Positions 24,814-31,113 of a stretch of 35,041 bases of DNA are shown one piece after another (positions within the stretch are counted from its first letter, which is position 1; every line of letters begins with the position of its first letter). Under the pieces are notes generated by a model. That model was not told the DNA's origin, ran no database searches, and worked only from the letters and a program-made list of their open reading frames with translations. The stretch is from a virus. Location: IMG/VR virus record IMGVR_UViG_3300025769_000393, positions 1-35,041 of that record; one strand, 5' to 3'. The translations under genes and the position numbers were made by a program.

Positions 24814-25980
24814 TTATCTTATAACGTATTTACCAAAGTTAGGTTTGCTTAAAATACTATAAGTTCCATAGCGTAAAGCATCAATCAAGTGATTGTGTCT
24901 GTCTATTGGTTTATTTATTGTCTTACCACTTCTGTCCTCATCCCACTTATAGTTTCTAAACTCTTGTATGGCATTGTTGCTGTCTTGTGTTAAGTGTATT
25001 TTGTATCGCTTTAATAAGTCTATACCTGCATTAATACTATCTCTACCTTTTATACTAGGTCTAATATTCCAACCCATCCTTCTTAGTTCGTCTATTAAAC
25101 GCACTTCGGCTGAGTCTGCCCATATCATTTCCCTATCTATATTTAAGCTACTAAGAAATTTATTTATATCAGTAGTGGTCATCATAGTGCGATACAGAAA
25201 CTCTTTAGCATAAAGATTATAACCATCTATCCAAATACCTATTAAGGTTGTAGGGTCATTAGTATATCCAAAGTCCATACCATAAGAAAGAAACTTAGCT
25301 GTTTCAGGTATGTAATTAACTTCAACGTATCTGAATATAGTCGACTTGCTTACCCCTTTAATACCTAAGCCATATATCTGCCAATACTGTTCGTCTGTTT
25401 CTCTTAGCCTTTGAATCTCCTGCTTGATGCTATCTCCTAAGAATGGATTGTCTAAATAGGTAGTTATAAAAAAATCACAGTCCTCTCTAGGTATTACCTT
25501 GTCATAAATCCAATGGTATTCATCTGAGGGATTGTAATCTATTATTACCTTTTCCTTTGTTCTAAATAAAAGCTGTTGCCAATCTTCCCAAAATAATTCA
25601 TTAGCCTCATTAATAAATAGTAAGTCTCTTTTTCTACCTCTTACCTTTTGTGGTTGGTCTAAAGAAATAAATTCCACTAGGTTACCATATAAAACGTACT
25701 CACTACTAGACTTATTGTGTGACTCTTCACTATACATTTGATACTGCTGTAATATCTGTATAAAATCTCGCATCACAGAGGCTCTAAGTGAGGGAAAAGT
25801 TTTGCGACATATAGTTATAGTCTTGCCTCTATTCTCAGGGCAGTAATAAAATATAATCCAAATAAGTATGTTATATGTTTTGCCCGAGCGTGTACCACCT
25901 TGCTCTACTATTATTTTTTTGTCAGAGTTTAGTAGATGCTTACATACAACATTTGTATCAATCGTGGATTGTTTCACCAC
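24814..25980 (-). CDS. terL: Terminase large subunit
   Basis: This 388-residue motor packages DNA and cuts the concatemer. Walker A is GGTRSGKT at 28-35 and the Walker B/catalytic Glu is in LLFINEAN (Glu125). The RNase H-like nuclease shows Asp236 in 'YGMDFGYTNDP', Asp289 in 'IWADSAE' and Asp367 in 'HLIDALRYG'. It is at the short end for the family. The start is GTG, inside the small terminase gene (23-base overlap). The phage-encoded base modification genes run straight into this pair. Confidence 0.93.
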   Translation of the reverse strand: MVKQSTIDTNVVCKHLLNSDKKIIVEQGGTRSGKTYNILIWIIFYYCPENRGKTITICRKTFPSLRASVMRDFIQILQQYQMYSEESHNKSSSEYVLYGNLVEFISLDQPQKVRGRKRDLLFINEANELFWEDWQQLLFRTKEKVIIDYNPSDEYHWIYDKVIPREDCDFFITTYLDNPFLGDSIKQEIQRLRETDEQYWQIYGLGIKGVSKSTIFRYVEVNYIPETAKFLSYGMDFGYTNDPTTLIGIWIDGYNLYAKEFLYRTMMTTTDINKFLSSLNIDREMIWADSAEVRLIDELRRMGWNIRPSIKGRDSINAGIDLLKRYKIHLTQDSNNAIQEFRNYKWDEDRSGKTINKPIDRHNHLIDALRYGTYSILSKPNFGKYVIR

Positions 25981-26314
25981 TTTCTATAATATTGATTCTA
26001 ATATCGTTAGGCAGACCCTCAGCACCTGTTATTTCTTGTCGTTCTACATAGCCTCTCCTTTTGCCTTTAGTCTTTAAATAAAATATAGTTGCAGCAGTAT
26101 TGCCTCCTTTAATTTGTTGATGCAGTTGACTCTCAGCAAAATCAAGAGCAATGTCTTGTATTGAATCTACCTCAGCTTTAAACTCAGGGTCTTTTAACCA
26201 CTCATAAAATTGTGTCCTACCTATACCAACTTGCTTACAAGCTGTGGTAACTACCCCTAAGGATTTTTCTAAGGCTTCTATTACTGCCTTTTTATGTTGT
26301 TCGGTTTTGTTCAT
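25958..26314 (-). CDS. terS: Terminase small subunit
   Basis: The 118-residue DNA-binding partner recognises the packaging site. A helix-turn-helix is visible in 'GVVTTACKQVGIGRTQFYEW' (about 20-39), followed by a helical oligomerisation part and the 'TKGKRRGYVERQEITGAEG' tail typical of small terminases. It starts by ATGA overlap with the folE fusion and ends inside terL. Confidence 0.82.
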   Translation of the reverse strand: MNKTEQHKKAVIEALEKSLGVVTTACKQVGIGRTQFYEWLKDPEFKAEVDSIQDIALDFAESQLHQQIKGGNTAATIFYLKTKGKRRGYVERQEITGAEGLPNDIRINIIESGETIHD

Positions 26315-27159
26315 TTCTTAATTGAGTTAAAAAATTCTAATCTAGCTTCATTACTATCTTTGAACGCTCCTATTAGTTTAGTAGTTGTTGTCCAAGTGTC
26401 GTGCTTTTTTACTCCTCTCATTTCCATACACATATGTTTAGCAGATAATGATACTGCTACTCCTTTGGCTTCTAATTTGTCTTGCAAAAATTCAGCTACC
26501 TGTGTAGTTATTCTTTCTTGGTTCTGTAACCTATGAGCAAACAAATCTAATGTTCTAGCTAATTTACTTAGTCCTACTATCTTATCTTTTGGTATGTAAG
26601 CTATATGACCATAACCAAAAAAAGGTGCTATGTGGTGTTCGCATAATGAGTAAAAAGGTATATTAGTTTGAACTATCATTTCATCATATCCCTCACTACT
26701 AAATGTGGTAAAGTTCCAATCAGGTATAGTTAAAAACTGTTTAAAAAACTTAACATATCTCTTAGGTGTTTCTTGTAGTCCTTCTCTAGTGACATCCTCT
26801 CCAAAGTATTGCAATAGCCTTGTGACATTATCTTCTACATTACCATTATGATTCTCCCAAGGAAATACTATCCACTCTCCTTTATACTCTTGTCTTTTAT
26901 CTATTAATGCTGCAAATGGTTTATTGTATTTTTTGTATTGTTTTAGTGTCGCTCCACTATCAATTAAATCATCTACTATTACATCAGCTTGTTCTATTGT
27001 GTCTACTGCATTACCTAACATACCTGCTATTATTTGTCCACCTCTAGGTACACCATAGTATTTTGTGTTAGGCTCGTAAGCAGATTTTAGATAACTGAGT
27101 CTGTTATATATTTCTTTCCAACTTATATTAGTTTTTAAACTCCTGTTTTCTTGTTCCAT
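26311..27159 (-). CDS. folE: Phosphoribosyltransferase fused to GTP cyclohydrolase I (FolE)
   Basis: FolE turns GTP into dihydroneopterin triphosphate, the first step to 7-deazaguanine bases. Residues about 105-282 hold the FolE core: 'PFYSLCEHHIAPFFGYGHIA' with Cys173 and His176, and Cys244 in 'KHMCMEMRG' as zinc ligands. Residues about 1-100 are a second domain with VPRGG (37-41) and the PRPP loop VIVDDLIDSGATL (60-72), a type I phosphoribosyltransferase. Free FolE is usually near 200 residues, so this is a true extension. The transferase could salvage guanine. It overlaps queE by 25 bases and terS by 4. Confidence 0.9.
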   Translation of the reverse strand: MEQENRSLKTNISWKEIYNRLSYLKSAYEPNTKYYGVPRGGQIIAGMLGNAVDTIEQADVIVDDLIDSGATLKQYKKYNKPFAALIDKRQEYKGEWIVFPWENHNGNVEDNVTRLLQYFGEDVTREGLQETPKRYVKFFKQFLTIPDWNFTTFSSEGYDEMIVQTNIPFYSLCEHHIAPFFGYGHIAYIPKDKIVGLSKLARTLDLFAHRLQNQERITTQVAEFLQDKLEAKGVAVSLSAKHMCMEMRGVKKHDTWTTTTKLIGAFKDSNEARLEFFNSIKK

Positions 27160-27863
27160 ATTTCTATATGTAATCTAGTTGTAAAATTTAAATGATTCTT
27201 CTTTGCTAGTTCTACAACTGTCTCTTTGTTTTCATTAAGCAGTTCTTGATTCTCACCTGCAGGCATTAAATATACTTTTTTCTTATCTACTAAGAATAAG
27301 TAATCGTCTTTTATTTCTTGCCATTCCTTTTCAGAGTTGACTACAAACTTAAAAATAGTGTTATGCTTGTTTAGTTCTTTTATTACATCAGGTTTGTATG
27401 TTATGCTTTTGTCGTTTCCGCTGTTAGTTAGTTTCGGACTACAATTCCAAAGACCGATATTATTTAATAAAAAATCACTAGGCATTATTGTGCCATTTGT
27501 TTCTACTTCAAAAAACGCATCTACATTTAAACTAAACTTTACATACTTAATAAATTCCTCTAATGCCGGTTGTTGCATTGTAGGCTCTCCACCTGTTAAA
27601 ATAATATGTGCGCCATTTTTTATAGCTTCTATACATTCCTCATCTAAAACATCCTGCATCTCTTTGCTCTGTGCTTTCATCCACACCTCAACTGTATCAC
27701 ATCTCCACTCAGCATCATTGTGTAACTCTCCATCAAATTGAGTACCCATTCCTCCACACATTAAATTACAGCCTCCTAGTCTAACAAATACACTTGGCAC
27801 TCCTACTGTTTTGCCTTCCCCTTGTATGGAGTAGAACACTTCGCTAATTGCTAACTTCTTCAT
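27135..27863 (-). CDS. queE: 7-carboxy-7-deazaguanine synthase (QueE)
   Basis: This radical SAM enzyme rearranges carboxytetrahydropterin to 7-carboxy-7-deazaguanine. The 242-residue protein opens 'ISEVFYSIQGEGKTVGVPSV', the standard QueE start, and has the iron-sulfur cysteines at 32, 36 and 55 (CNLMC, then WRCDT). The gap between the second and third Cys is much longer than in the usual CX3CX2C, a variant seen in some QueE. 'HIILTGGEPTMQ' (about 90-101) binds SAM. It lies between queD and folE, with overlaps of 20 and 25 bases. Confidence 0.92.
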   Translation of the reverse strand: MKKLAISEVFYSIQGEGKTVGVPSVFVRLGGCNLMCGGMGTQFDGELHNDAEWRCDTVEVWMKAQSKEMQDVLDEECIEAIKNGAHIILTGGEPTMQQPALEEFIKYVKFSLNVDAFFEVETNGTIMPSDFLLNNIGLWNCSPKLTNSGNDKSITYKPDVIKELNKHNTIFKFVVNSEKEWQEIKDDYLFLVDKKKVYLMPAGENQELLNENKETVVELAKKNHLNFTTRLHIEIWNKKTGV

Positions 27864-28251
27864 ATATAATTGTGCTTGATTTTGTTTCGGCTAATTCTAT
27901 TCTAGTTATAGGTAATTTGCCTTCGTTTTTTATTCTATTGAATATCCATATAGCCATATTCTCTGCACTTGTTTCAAATGGTACAGATATAAATGGCTCG
28001 TCTGCTAATCTAAATACATCTACTAATGGGTCTTCTTCAAATAAAATAAAGTAGTGGTCATATTTTTTTATAATAGGTTCGGCTATATTATCTATATCTG
28101 AAAACAACATAGTGACACCATCTTTCATTTCGGTAAACTTAAACTCACATACTACATCATAGGTGTGTCCGTGTAACCTGCCACATTTTTCTCCTGCATT
28201 TTTATTTCTATGCCCTGCGTAAAAGTGATATTTTTTTCTGATTTTAATCAT
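27844..28251 (-). CDS. queD: 6-carboxytetrahydropterin synthase (QueD)
   Basis: QueD converts dihydroneopterin triphosphate to 6-carboxytetrahydropterin. The T-fold protein has 135 residues. The zinc ligands His14, His27 and His29 lie in 'YHFYAGHRN' and 'LHGHTYDV', and Cys23 in 'EKCGRLHGH' is the catalytic nucleophile. 'KYDHYFILFEED' and 'ELAETKSSTIIYEE' match further active-site strands. It overlaps the glycosyltransferase gene by 8 bases. Confidence 0.92.
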   Translation of the reverse strand: MIKIRKKYHFYAGHRNKNAGEKCGRLHGHTYDVVCEFKFTEMKDGVTMLFSDIDNIAEPIIKKYDHYFILFEEDPLVDVFRLADEPFISVPFETSAENMAIWIFNRIKNEGKLPITRIELAETKSSTIIYEEVSN

Positions 28252-29395
28252 TTATAATCCTTTTAATATATTCATACTCGTGCCAAATATTTAATTCAGC
28301 ACCATCATAATCATTACTAACTATGTGTGCTTCTAATCTTCTACCCCAATCTGATAATATAGCTAGTTCTACTTTATTTTTATCATTTTTATCTTTTGAT
28401 TTATTTAAAGCCTTAACTGCAGAATCAATGCTAAATGGTGTGTATTTATTTTTTAAATGATACATTTCTTCAAAACTTCTAAAGTTAGGATAAACTAAAT
28501 TACATCTAAACGCATCTGCTTCTAATGCTGTCCAACTAACATAGTCTTGTAGAGAACAATTAAATTGTATTTTTGCCTCACTCAATTCGTAGTAATATTC
28601 TTGTTTAGTTAAATTTTTCTTTAGAACAAATCTTTTGTTTTGTTTGGCATAATTTTCTAAATCTTCTACTACTCCTTTTACACTACTTCTAAAATTTGTT
28701 CCACTTGTTGTTAATATAAAATTCCAATCTTGATTTTGTTTTAGAAACTTTTTTGCAACCTCAAGTAAGAAGTAAGGATTTTTTTCCTTATCTAATCTGC
28801 TAGTATATATAACGTTGTTTTTTTTAATTCTAATATCAGGAGCAGTTTTAAGAACATCTTGTACGTCTAAAGGTAAACTAACAACGTGTATTGGTGCTTT
28901 AAATCCTGCTGCTCTTAGTTGCTCTTTATGTATGGTGCTACCAACAAATATACCTGTCATTCTATTATCAAGACCTAGTTCATAAAACCTCATCCAATCT
29001 TTCATCACATAGGTAAAATCATACTCATCTACTGACTGTGCGTGTAACATTGCATACACCTTTATATTTTTATAACCATAGGAATCTAAAGCATAAAAAA
29101 TAGAATCAATACCTGATGTCCAATAGTCTTGTAAAAAAATAACATCTCCATCTTTTACTTTTGATGTCCTAATTTTATCTAGGAAGTTATTGCATTGACT
29201 CAAACTATATTGCCCTCTACCTACTGCATCTAACACAGCACCTACCCTAATTTCTTTTCCTGTTTGAAGTTCTCCCTTGACAGGTATAAAATTAACATCA
29301 TACTTTTCAAATGCTTTTGGCATCCAAATATTAGATAATTGATAAGTGTATCTTTCTTTTAGTGGCTCTAAGCCAAAATACCATATGTTTTTCAT
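28244..29395 (-). CDS. GT-B glycosyltransferase in the deazaguanine operon
   Basis: The 383-residue protein fits GT-B glycosyltransferases (GT4/GT1-like). The C-terminal lobe starts at 'VIYTSRLDKEKNPYFLLEVA' (about 195-214) with the nucleotide-sugar binding strand and helix, and ends with 'SWTALEADAF' (about 287-296), close to the donor-binding EX7E region. The N-terminal lobe opens 'MKNIWYFGLEPLKERYTYQL'. The gene is locked between the dpdA-side genes and queD by 4- and 8-base overlaps, so it belongs to the modification operon. I infer a sugar transfer to the modified DNA base. A capsid glycosyltransferase is the alternative. Confidence 0.78.
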   Translation of the reverse strand: MKNIWYFGLEPLKERYTYQLSNIWMPKAFEKYDVNFIPVKGELQTGKEIRVGAVLDAVGRGQYSLSQCNNFLDKIRTSKVKDGDVIFLQDYWTSGIDSIFYALDSYGYKNIKVYAMLHAQSVDEYDFTYVMKDWMRFYELGLDNRMTGIFVGSTIHKEQLRAAGFKAPIHVVSLPLDVQDVLKTAPDIRIKKNNVIYTSRLDKEKNPYFLLEVAKKFLKQNQDWNFILTTSGTNFRSSVKGVVEDLENYAKQNKRFVLKKNLTKQEYYYELSEAKIQFNCSLQDYVSWTALEADAFRCNLVYPNFRSFEEMYHLKNKYTPFSIDSAVKALNKSKDKNDKNKVELAILSDWGRRLEAHIVSNDYDGAELNIWHEYEYIKRIIND

Positions 29396-29736
29396 AATAC
29401 TATTGCTCCATTTTCGTTGTCTTCTAATACCTCAACTGAATAACAGTCAAACTCTTTGTATATTATTTTTGCTATTTGTTCGCAACTTAACAATTGGAAG
29501 TCTAGCAATTGCATTTCTAAATTCCAAAACCTTTTGTGTAAGTAGTTTATTATTTGTTTTTTAAACTTTATTATTTCTATATCTCTATCATCGTGGCTTA
29601 CCTCTTTTTTTACATTGATATAAAAGTTATGCCTGTGTAAGTTTAAAAGATATTCTACTTCTTTAATGTCACAATCTTTCCATTGATGCACACCTTCAGC
29701 TATAATATTAACTACTATTAGTGTTTTTGCTTCCAT
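29392..29736 (-). CDS. Unknown small protein of the deazaguanine operon
   Basis: The 114 residues open 'MEAKTLIVVNIIAEGVHQWK', then 'EVEYLLNLHRHNFYINVKKE', 'VSHDDRDIEIIKFKKQIINY'. The spaced His/Arg/Asp cluster and the E-I-I-K-F-K strand/helix look like a reduced T-fold of the QueD type, without the QueD Cys. It overlaps dpdA by 19 bases and the glycosyltransferase by 4. It is probably an operon partner: an accessory subunit or a further pterin/deazaguanine enzyme. No family name is claimed. Confidence 0.6.
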   Translation of the reverse strand: MEAKTLIVVNIIAEGVHQWKDCDIKEVEYLLNLHRHNFYINVKKEVSHDDRDIEIIKFKKQIINYLHKRFWNLEMQLLDFQLLSCEQIAKIIYKEFDCYSVEVLEDNENGAIVL

Positions 29737-30602
29737 TGATTATAATTTATGTTGTCTAAGTTATTATTTATATAAAGTAGCACATTTAATTGATGTGTAT
29801 TTGCTATTGCTAAAAATAAATTCAATCCTAACCTTTTAGCATATTGTTGATACTTTGTATATGCAACAGCGTTTAACATTGTTCCTATACTTCTTGCTCC
29901 CTTATGGTTGTCTAAATCACTAAAGTCCTTAGGCGTTACCTTTAGTTCTTCTAAGGCTTGTTTTAAACCTATTGGCATTTTCTTTTTTTTAGTTAAAATG
30001 TCTATGTATCTAACGGACTTAATTTTATCTTCAAACCAATTTAATATACCATACACCTCACTTGATTGCAACCAACTACTGCTGTCTACAGAATGTAAAG
30101 GCAATCTAAATATATCATTGTATTGTACAAATCCTAAAGCGTGTATATCTGCTTTGCTATTTTTGTACACATCTTGATACCTTTTTAACATCCAATCTCC
30201 TCTATTTGTAACACCACCTGCGACACATAAATGTTTTTGATTTTGTACTGCTTCATTAAGAAACTCCCAATCATTATCATACTCAGTAAAAACATACATA
30301 GGATTAAATCCTCTGTCTAACATTGTGTGATAATTTTGTCTTGTCTTTTGTTCGTTTTTAATAACATCAAGCATTACATATTTTTCTACCTTATGTGCGT
30401 TTGTTTCTAAATAAGTACAATAACTATCAAGGTTTAGCTTAGACACTTTTTTTGCATTGTATATAGTAAAAGCACCGCTATCAATCATTACATTGGCATT
30501 ACCCTTTACGCTTTCATTCATTACAGCATCATTGAACTTTGGTGCTTTACCTGTATAAGCGTAGCTAACTAATATGTTAAAGTGTGTGTTATTTGACTTC
30601 AC
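29718..30602 (-). CDS. dpdA: DpdA-like DNA-guanine transglycosylase
   Basis: DpdA enzymes, relatives of tRNA-guanine transglycosylases, exchange guanine in DNA for a 7-deazaguanine base. This 294-residue protein shows 'NVMIDSGAFTIYN' (Asp41), 'KYVMLDVIKN' (Asp79), 'LCVAGGVTNRG' and 'FRLPLHSVDSSSWL' (Asp173), with 'ARSIGTMLNAVAYTKY' later. The acid residues in these loops are the likely nucleophile and base. Size fits phage members. It shares 14 bases with the ParB gene. The downstream QueD, QueE and FolE genes make the assignment strong. Confidence 0.85.
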   Translation of the reverse strand: MKSNNTHFNILVSYAYTGKAPKFNDAVMNESVKGNANVMIDSGAFTIYNAKKVSKLNLDSYCTYLETNAHKVEKYVMLDVIKNEQKTRQNYHTMLDRGFNPMYVFTEYDNDWEFLNEAVQNQKHLCVAGGVTNRGDWMLKRYQDVYKNSKADIHALGFVQYNDIFRLPLHSVDSSSWLQSSEVYGILNWFEDKIKSVRYIDILTKKKKMPIGLKQALEELKVTPKDFSDLDNHKGARSIGTMLNAVAYTKYQQYAKRLGLNLFLAIANTHQLNVLLYINNNLDNINYNQWKQKH

Positions 30603-31113
30603 ATCCTTTAAAATTTTCTTCTAACCAAATAGTAATCTTTTCAGTTATCTCAGATTTTTTTTCTTTATTAGTCTCATCAAGAACTATAACAACTCTTTCA
30701 TTAGCATCATCTTTCTTTTCTGCCTCTTCAATATAATCTAAATTATCCCAATCAAACTTTACTCCATCTAATCCCCACTTTTCTAACAGTAAGTTGTCCC
30801 AATCATTTGCTAATATATCCCAATCCCATTCACCGAAGCCTACATTATCTTTAATGATAAATTCTTGCTTCTGCTGTTCTGTCCAACCTTTTGCTATTAA
30901 TATATCTACTTCTTTTAATCCTGCTTCTTGACAAGCCTTAAGCCTCATATTACCTCCAAGCACTATCATATCTTCATCTACTACAATAGGTCTTTTCTCT
31001 AACATTTCAGGAAACTCCTTTATGCTGTCAACTAGTTTTTTAAACTTATAGTCCTTTATTAACCTAGGATTATTTTGATTAGGTTTTATTTCATTTATTT
31101 TAACTTTCATCAT
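30589..31113 (-). CDS. ParB-domain protein
   Basis: The 174-residue protein has the ParB/sulfiredoxin nucleotide-binding fold in the first 100 residues: 'VKINEIKPNQNNPRLIKDY' and 'MIVLGGNMRLKACQEAG', which equals the conserved GG-x-R-x-x-A box. 'EQQKQEFIIKDNVGFGEWDW' follows, and the C-terminal third is charged. Phage proteins of this kind often go with DNA modification enzymes. Here the gene is coupled to dpdA by a 14-base overlap. It lacks the helix-turn-helix of chromosomal ParB, so plasmid-type partition is unlikely. Confidence 0.8.
   Translation of the reverse strand: MMKVKINEIKPNQNNPRLIKDYKFKKLVDSIKEFPEMLEKRPIVVDEDMIVLGGNMRLKACQEAGLKEVDILIAKGWTEQQKQEFIIKDNVGFGEWDWDILANDWDNLLLEKWGLDGVKFDWDNLDYIEEAEKKDDANERVVIVLDETNKEKKSEITEKITIWLEENFKGCEVK

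Follow-up and report, generated by a model that had tools for sequence, protein, structure and literature searches.

Why should a phage operon for 7-deazaguanine carry a glycosyltransferase? The question is posed by IMG/VR record IMGVR_UViG_3300025769_000393, a viral record of 35,041 bases that we analysed whole and refer to as the window. Six overlapping genes occupy positions 26311 to 30602 on its minus strand and run, from 30602 down to 26311, from the putative DNA guanine transglycosylase DpdA through a small protein, the glycosyltransferase (GT), QueD and QueE to a FolE fusion, with successive overlaps of 19, 4, 8, 20 and 25 bases. The original prediction, drawn up from the letters of the window, had named the same genes, leaving the small protein without an identity, and had read the 4- and 8-base overlaps flanking the GT as a sign that the deazaguanine is decorated further. 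Open reading frame (ORF) coordinates and family matches bear out the layout and both overlaps, all the assignments stand, and the small protein can now be described, from its modelled structure, as a QueD-fold paralogue. We argue below that the operon probably makes a sugar-decorated 7-deazaguanine for phage DNA.

Linkage of the glycosyltransferase to deazaguanine genes

Gene overlap in a single genome had been the whole basis of the proposed base decoration; comparison across genomes provides much stronger evidence, even if the chemistry is still something we infer. IMG/VR was scanned with GT peptide motifs as the only query, so that the scans were blind to neighbouring genes. The first scan returned 411 related contigs and the second, which included distant members, 76; among cellular genomes, covering 84,980 species, the GT turned up in only 4 contigs from metagenome-assembled genomes. 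Within flanks of ~7-8 kb, the 166 GT loci (loci, with or without the GT, have L numbers below) contain the small paralogue in 138 cases, DpdA in 137, FolE in 125, QueE in 119 and QueD in 82. Only two loci have no pathway gene in their flanks, and these flanks are fragments, so that absences in single loci mean little: L137 and L139 resembled pathway-less loci, and L137 has a DpdA ~29 kb from the GT while L139 is a 10.8 kb fragment.

Grouping at 70% identity yields 82 GT clusters. One or more pathway genes accompany the GT in 80 of them; DpdA does so in 67 and the paralogue in 65. The core genes, 608 in all, share the strand of the GT without exception, there are many different gene orders among the 82 clusters, and the most frequent direct neighbour of the GT is the paralogue. 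A single profile detected DpdA in 29 of 35 large viral records, and locus profiles added five of the remaining six. As a rough background, the window DpdA matches 188 of 50,697 phage records, which is an undercount; the census covers this one GT family, and the background is the frequency of DpdA, not that of an unrelated phage GT family.

The same association recurs among isolated phages. The GT is found by tblastn in Synechococcus phage BUCT-ZZ01, Xanthomonas phage X1, Sinorhizobium phage Phosso and Acidovorax phage ACP17, and Pseudomonas phage Paride has a homologue next to its QueD paralogue. In all five the GT lies inside a deazaguanine cluster, next to or near the paralogue, and all five lineages have DpdA, near the GT in four and ~170 kb away in Phosso. 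GT-bearing phages with wholly different backbones thus share the association. The neighbourhood search, which the original prediction had proposed as a check, therefore comes out in favour of a link: judged by gene content, the GT family is a stable part of the phage deazaguanine pathway. Because it travels with the same pathway in so many unrelated phages, the base is probably glycosylated.

In several clades the GT has as its neighbour a small protein starting with G.E(V/I)E...G..T.F, the largest group comprising 44 loci (for example L005:9145-9570, L006:9143-9544, L009:7519-7950 and L080:5812-6336); the four tested had no Pfam match. The window has no such gene, while its close relatives L005 and L006 do.

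Fold and motifs of the glycosyltransferase

Is the protein still a working glycosyltransferase? The gene (28244-29395) encodes 383 residues that match Glycos_transf_1 (PF00534) with E=5e-5, at 23.3 bits against a cut-off of 26.4, which the homologue in L042 passes with 29.2 bits. Structure prediction, the other check that had been proposed, gives a confident GT-B fold: the AlphaFold2 (AF2) model has a predicted local distance difference test score (pLDDT) of 93.4 and a predicted template modelling score (pTM) of 0.91. A Foldseek search of the PDB returned 369 matches at E<=0.001, the best 50 of which were inspected by name; nearest are MshA (4e-13) and BshA (1e-12), the GT4 enzymes of mycothiol and bacillithiol synthesis, whose donor is UDP-GlcNAc. 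By sequence, the closest PDB entry is the GT4 mannosyltransferase WbaZ-1 (1.7e-7). T4 alpha-GT and beta-GT are not named among the best 50 of the 369 matches, and membership of a T4-like group of DNA glycosyltransferases is not supported, the nearest folds being MshA and BshA. The likeness to the sugar on T4 hydroxymethylcytosine, which the original prediction had drawn, consequently holds for function but does not extend to these structural matches.

Over 59 homologues 13 residues are invariant. R200, K205 and E292 are present in 59 of 59, and position 284 is D or E in every one (E-x7-E), the window clade having Asp instead of Glu there (D284-x7-E292), as do 22 of the 59 homologues in total. 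The family also has an N-terminal motif of its own, LEPxxxRYT (residues 9-17), and family-specific conserved residues at E10, R15, Y16, D90, D126 and E139. Model and alignment together point to a GT4-type enzyme with a GT-B double Rossmann fold and intact catalytic motifs.

Pathway enzymes and the expected base

If the GT decorates a deazaguanine, the genes around it should be able to make and insert one. DpdA (29718-30602, 294 residues, GTG start) matches phrog_887, annotated 'queuine tRNA-ribosyltransferase', with E=1.7e-30, and by tblastn it matches the DpdAs of Nonagvirus and Pseudomonas phages. D41 (in DSG), HxLG at 154-157 and D173 are invariant with respect to the DpdAs of other GT-bearing phages; a DpdA profile run against PDB sequences found no match to a tRNA-guanine transglycosylase (TGT). 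On these motifs the protein is predicted to be a DpdA-type transglycosylase with the TGT catalytic aspartates. The phage DpdAs that it matches have relatives that modify DNA (PMC6884629).

The active-site residues that had been noted earlier in QueD, QueE and FolE could all be located in the translations. QueD, a 6-carboxy-tetrahydropterin synthase (27844-28251, 135 residues; PTPS E=2.3e-24), has a complete site with C23, H14, H27 and H29 (HGH 27-29), D65-H66 (YDH 64-66) and the Glu of AETK; QueE, a radical S-adenosylmethionine 7-carboxy-7-deazaguanine (CDG) synthase (27135-27863, 242 residues; phrog_2076 E=1e-55), has C32, C36, C55 and TGGEP. The FolE fusion gene (26311-27159, 282 residues) ends in a GTP cyclohydrolase I domain (residues 109-280, 26320-26835; PF01227 E=3.8e-62) with C173, H175/H176 (CEHH 173) and C244. 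By sequence, then, the window encodes FolE, QueD and QueE with intact active sites.

A QueC gene was sought in the window record and none was found; a QueC match over the cut-off occurs in only one of 12 GT- or paralogue-bearing records. Lacking QueC, the phage's own route would end at CDG. A CDG-level product and QueC supplied by the host are both compatible with the missing phage gene. We discarded a preQ0-derived base as a candidate, QueC being absent from the window and rare in related records. The X1 cluster has an ATP pyrophosphatase resembling 3'-phosphoadenosine 5'-phosphosulfate (PAPS) reductase (L009:6338-6871), a possible QueC substitute.

The N-terminal part of the FolE fusion (residues ~1-105, 26845-27159) resembles a mini phosphoribosyltransferase (PRTase; phrog_8995 E=2.2e-5), with the motifs YGVPRGG at 35 and VDDLIDSG at 62. 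One might speculate that it salvages the guanine freed by DpdA. The homologous BUCT-ZZ01 cluster has a stand-alone PRTase gene, and a separate one occurs in 50 of the 166 GT loci (e.g. L008:3093-3554).

The operon is bordered by a ParB-like gene (30589-31113) on one side and by terminase genes on the other (small subunit 25958-26314, large subunit 24814-25980); the other large genes tested in the window are mostly tailed-phage structural genes. Four more contigs from this phage group keep its gene set, at 54-100% protein identity, and the gene order is kept in L003-L006; this conservation is why we do not regard it as a chance array of ORFs.

A QueD-fold paralogue without the catalytic cysteine

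The small protein of 114 residues (29392-29736; 'sPTPS') matches the Pfam family of 6-pyruvoyl-tetrahydropterin synthase (PTPS) only below the cut-off (E=0.0029), and a profile of 43 members reaches the PTPS structure 2dj6 with E=3.8e-4. Its AF2 model has a mean pLDDT of 96.9 and finds chains of E. coli QueD as its best PDB matches (Foldseek, E=5e-6). All 43 homologues have the zinc-binding His triad H17/H34/H36 and, on the substrate side, the Glu E105. Fold and triad, which it shares with QueD and 6-pyruvoyl-tetrahydropterin synthase, identify it, on its model, as a QueD-fold paralogue. Imagine that it were a second functional QueD or PTPS. We would then expect the catalytic cysteine, and that position is an invariant Leu (L30) in 43 of 43 homologues; since the Cys is replaced in all of them, we rule this out. 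No counterpart of the Asp-His dyad of QueD could be aligned in the paralogue either, and canonical QueD is encoded separately in the operon. S84-C85-E86, which hardly varies, may belong to a novel active site.

Some phages that lack this GT have the paralogue too, among them Cellulophaga phiST, Chryseobacterium MA9V-3, Vibrio D479 and Aeromonas Ahp1. The role of the paralogue is hence not specific to the sugar, and it is probably an enzyme that acts at the level of the base. CDG decarboxylation is one option that we infer. Cui and colleagues are said to have predicted, in 2023, a phage CDG decarboxylase named 'DpdL'; the paralogue, found in CDG-pathway phages such as Cellulophaga phiST, is a possible candidate for it.

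In four of the phages without the GT, a gene near the paralogue encodes a transglycosylase-like protein of another family, marked by DN(S/G) and HxLG motifs (L014:7807-8586, L012:7821-8615, L015:7692-8549 and L019:7426-8298; phrog_20335 in phiST and MA9V-3). From its sequence, this family looks like another DpdA subfamily.

Sugar-nucleotide and sugar-processing neighbours

Which sugar might be transferred? A UDP-glucose 4-epimerase of the GalE type accompanies the GT in 31 loci and abuts or overlaps it in 24, the two proteins tested matching GalE in the PDB with 1e-58 to 9e-70. An epimerase abutting the GT makes a UDP-hexose donor likely. Other clades have, within ~6.5 kb, a phosphomannomutase (11 loci), a UDP-glucose/GDP-mannose dehydrogenase-like protein (15) or a cytidylyltransferase (16). 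Clusters of the cyanophage type add a second glycosyltransferase, of family GT2 (31 loci; e.g. L008:5010-6353, 447 residues), which could extend the sugar.

In four loci a PIG-L-like domain with PHxDDE is fused to the paralogue (L163:4791-5531, L166:4535-5278, L168:4449-5207 and L171:5651-6562), and X1 and L174 have a stand-alone PIG-L-like protein; the PHxDDE and DxHxxH motifs are present in these domains. A profile search of the domain against the PDB gave no match, and with Pfam matches also below threshold we keep the name at 'PIG-L-like'. MshA and BshA work upstream of PIG-L-type deacetylases, and the fusion suggests deacetylation of an N-acetylated sugar.

Discussion

How might these parts work together? 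FolE, QueD and QueE, with their intact active sites, would convert GTP to CDG, and the QueD-fold paralogue would act on CDG or on a product of it. DpdA, if it behaves like its family, would swap guanine in DNA for the deaza base, and the PRTase-like segment would, speculatively, salvage the released guanine. The GT would use a nucleotide sugar as donor, a UDP-sugar being the likeliest, and attach its hexose or N-acetylhexosamine to a substituent at or near C7 of the deazaguanine, before or after the base is inserted. The expected benefit would be phage DNA shielded from host nucleases. The claim of sugar transfer draws on gene association, fold and sugar-nucleotide neighbours. MshA and BshA act on small molecules, which makes glycosylation of the free base possible; by analogy, transfer at the level of DNA, as in T4, is equally open.

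Several points weigh against this reading. At its weakest, it limits the acceptors to the carboxylate of CDG or, if the base is decarboxylated, to C7; neither is a usual GT4 acceptor, and the atom of attachment is left unexplained. The carboxylate would give an acyl glycoside and the decarboxylated base a C-glycoside at C7. Either DpdA must accept a glycosylated base or the GT must act on DNA. The paralogue, the favoured neighbour of the GT, is also found in deazaguanine-pathway phages without it; in the window itself we saw neither an epimerase gene nor any other sugar-nucleotide gene; and PIG-L, although the top Pfam match in all four fusions, stays below the cut-off (E=0.006-0.05).

Could the same genes be explained otherwise? 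The GT might simply hitch-hike with the operon, its real target being a virion protein, a host surface polysaccharide or another DNA base. Phages do carry many GT4-type enzymes with other roles, and in the window terminase genes adjoin the operon. However, the association spans 82 divergent clusters, many gene orders and unrelated phage backbones, and the GT usually has the QueD paralogue, and not a tail or capsid gene, as its immediate neighbour. Linkage in 80 of these clusters, intact GT4 residues, the GT-B fold and the 24 epimerase neighbours, which together support a role in base decoration as originally proposed, argue against a virion-protein or surface-polysaccharide role; glycosylation of virion or surface is unlikely, and so is hitch-hiking in general. 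We consider it decidedly unlikely that FolE and the PTPS-fold protein make a tetrahydropterin for the GT to glycosylate, by analogy with the biopterin glucosides of cyanobacteria, and that the deazaguanine genes have a separate function. Both genes do neighbour the GT, and the tetrahydrobiopterin glucosyltransferase PsBGluT (9v0l) appears at rank 35 among the GT-B fold matches. Yet MshA and BshA are closer, the paralogue has no catalytic Cys in any of its 43 homologues, most GT clusters also contain DpdA and QueE, and the adjacent short-chain dehydrogenase/reductase (SDR) genes are UDP-glucose 4-epimerases and not sepiapterin reductases.

The target might also be tRNA, with a phage-made, glycosylated queuosine-like base at wobble positions: DpdA is TGT-like, and mannosyl- and galactosyl-queuosine are known from animal tRNA. 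We think this very improbable, as the transglycosylases match DpdAs of phages that have DNA-modifying relatives (PMC6884629), QueC was not found, and we noticed no gene for QueF, QueA or QueG in the window. Least probable of all is an unsugared deazaguanine, the GT of this phage being inactive or having taken on a structural role. The Pfam score below the curated cut-off and the Asp at the first E-x7-E position might hint at decay, but 22 of 59 homologues have that Asp, no other motif position varies, and every close relative keeps an intact GT reading frame.

Our preferred reading, a glycosylated deazaguanine in phage DNA, has wider implications. We would give about even odds that these clusters represent a large, undescribed class of phage hypermodification, in which position 7 of a deazaguanine would bear a hexose or an amino sugar, perhaps as a C- or acyl glycoside, through the action of a GT4 enzyme and a zinc-binding QueD-like partner, with a second GT and PIG-L-type deacetylation in some phages. 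If true, a glycosylated purine analogue would widen the chemistry of DNA and explain a family of hypothetical phage proteins in >400 viral contigs. It would also predict nuclease-resistant DNA in laboratory phages, including Paride, a killer of dormant cells, and PA5oct; new DNA-modifying glycosyltransferases would be useful tools for DNA labelling. Term searches of the MIJ3, Paride and Callisto papers found no restriction or modification test of the DNA of these phages. PA5oct, whose close relative Paride carries the GT, the QueD paralogue and DpdA, was sized at ~375 kbp by pulsed-field gel electrophoresis (PMC3936114), against a sequenced length of 286,783 bp (NC_071039.1). The gap could reflect terminal redundancy or a changed migration of modified DNA in the gel.

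Would such a base be new? The original prediction thought so, and we found no report of a glycosylated deazaguanine in DNA in a literature search that left out most subscription papers and bioRxiv; because this coverage is partial, priority is uncertain. To our knowledge, DNA bases that carry sugars derive from pyrimidines (5-hydroxymethylcytosine, 5-hydroxymethyluracil), and we know of no sugar among phage deazaguanine derivatives.

Among known enzymes, MshA and BshA are the best structural match to the phage GT, and their logic of a GT4 followed by a PIG-L deacetylase recurs where the PIG-L-like domain is fused to the paralogue; the phage GT differs in its own LEPxExRYT N-terminus, its deazaguanine context and an identity of only 11-16%. 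T4 alpha-GT and beta-GT and the TET-associated DNA glycosyltransferases (Pyle et al. 2024, as cited in PMC13216743) are likewise GT-B enzymes that add sugars to modified phage bases. Here, in contrast, the acceptor would be a deazaguanine instead of a hydroxymethylpyrimidine, and the GT genes are tied to QueE and DpdA instead of hydroxymethylases. There is also a close likeness to phage 7-deazaguanine modification (Hutinet et al. 2019, PMC6884629), which has the same DpdA and the same FolE-QueD-QueE route, whereas our clusters add a GT4 and the Cys-less paralogue, often sugar-nucleotide genes, and usually have no QueC. We see in the operon a new variation on the established deazaguanine system, and there is a realistic prospect that its product belongs to a chemical class not yet described among DNA bases.

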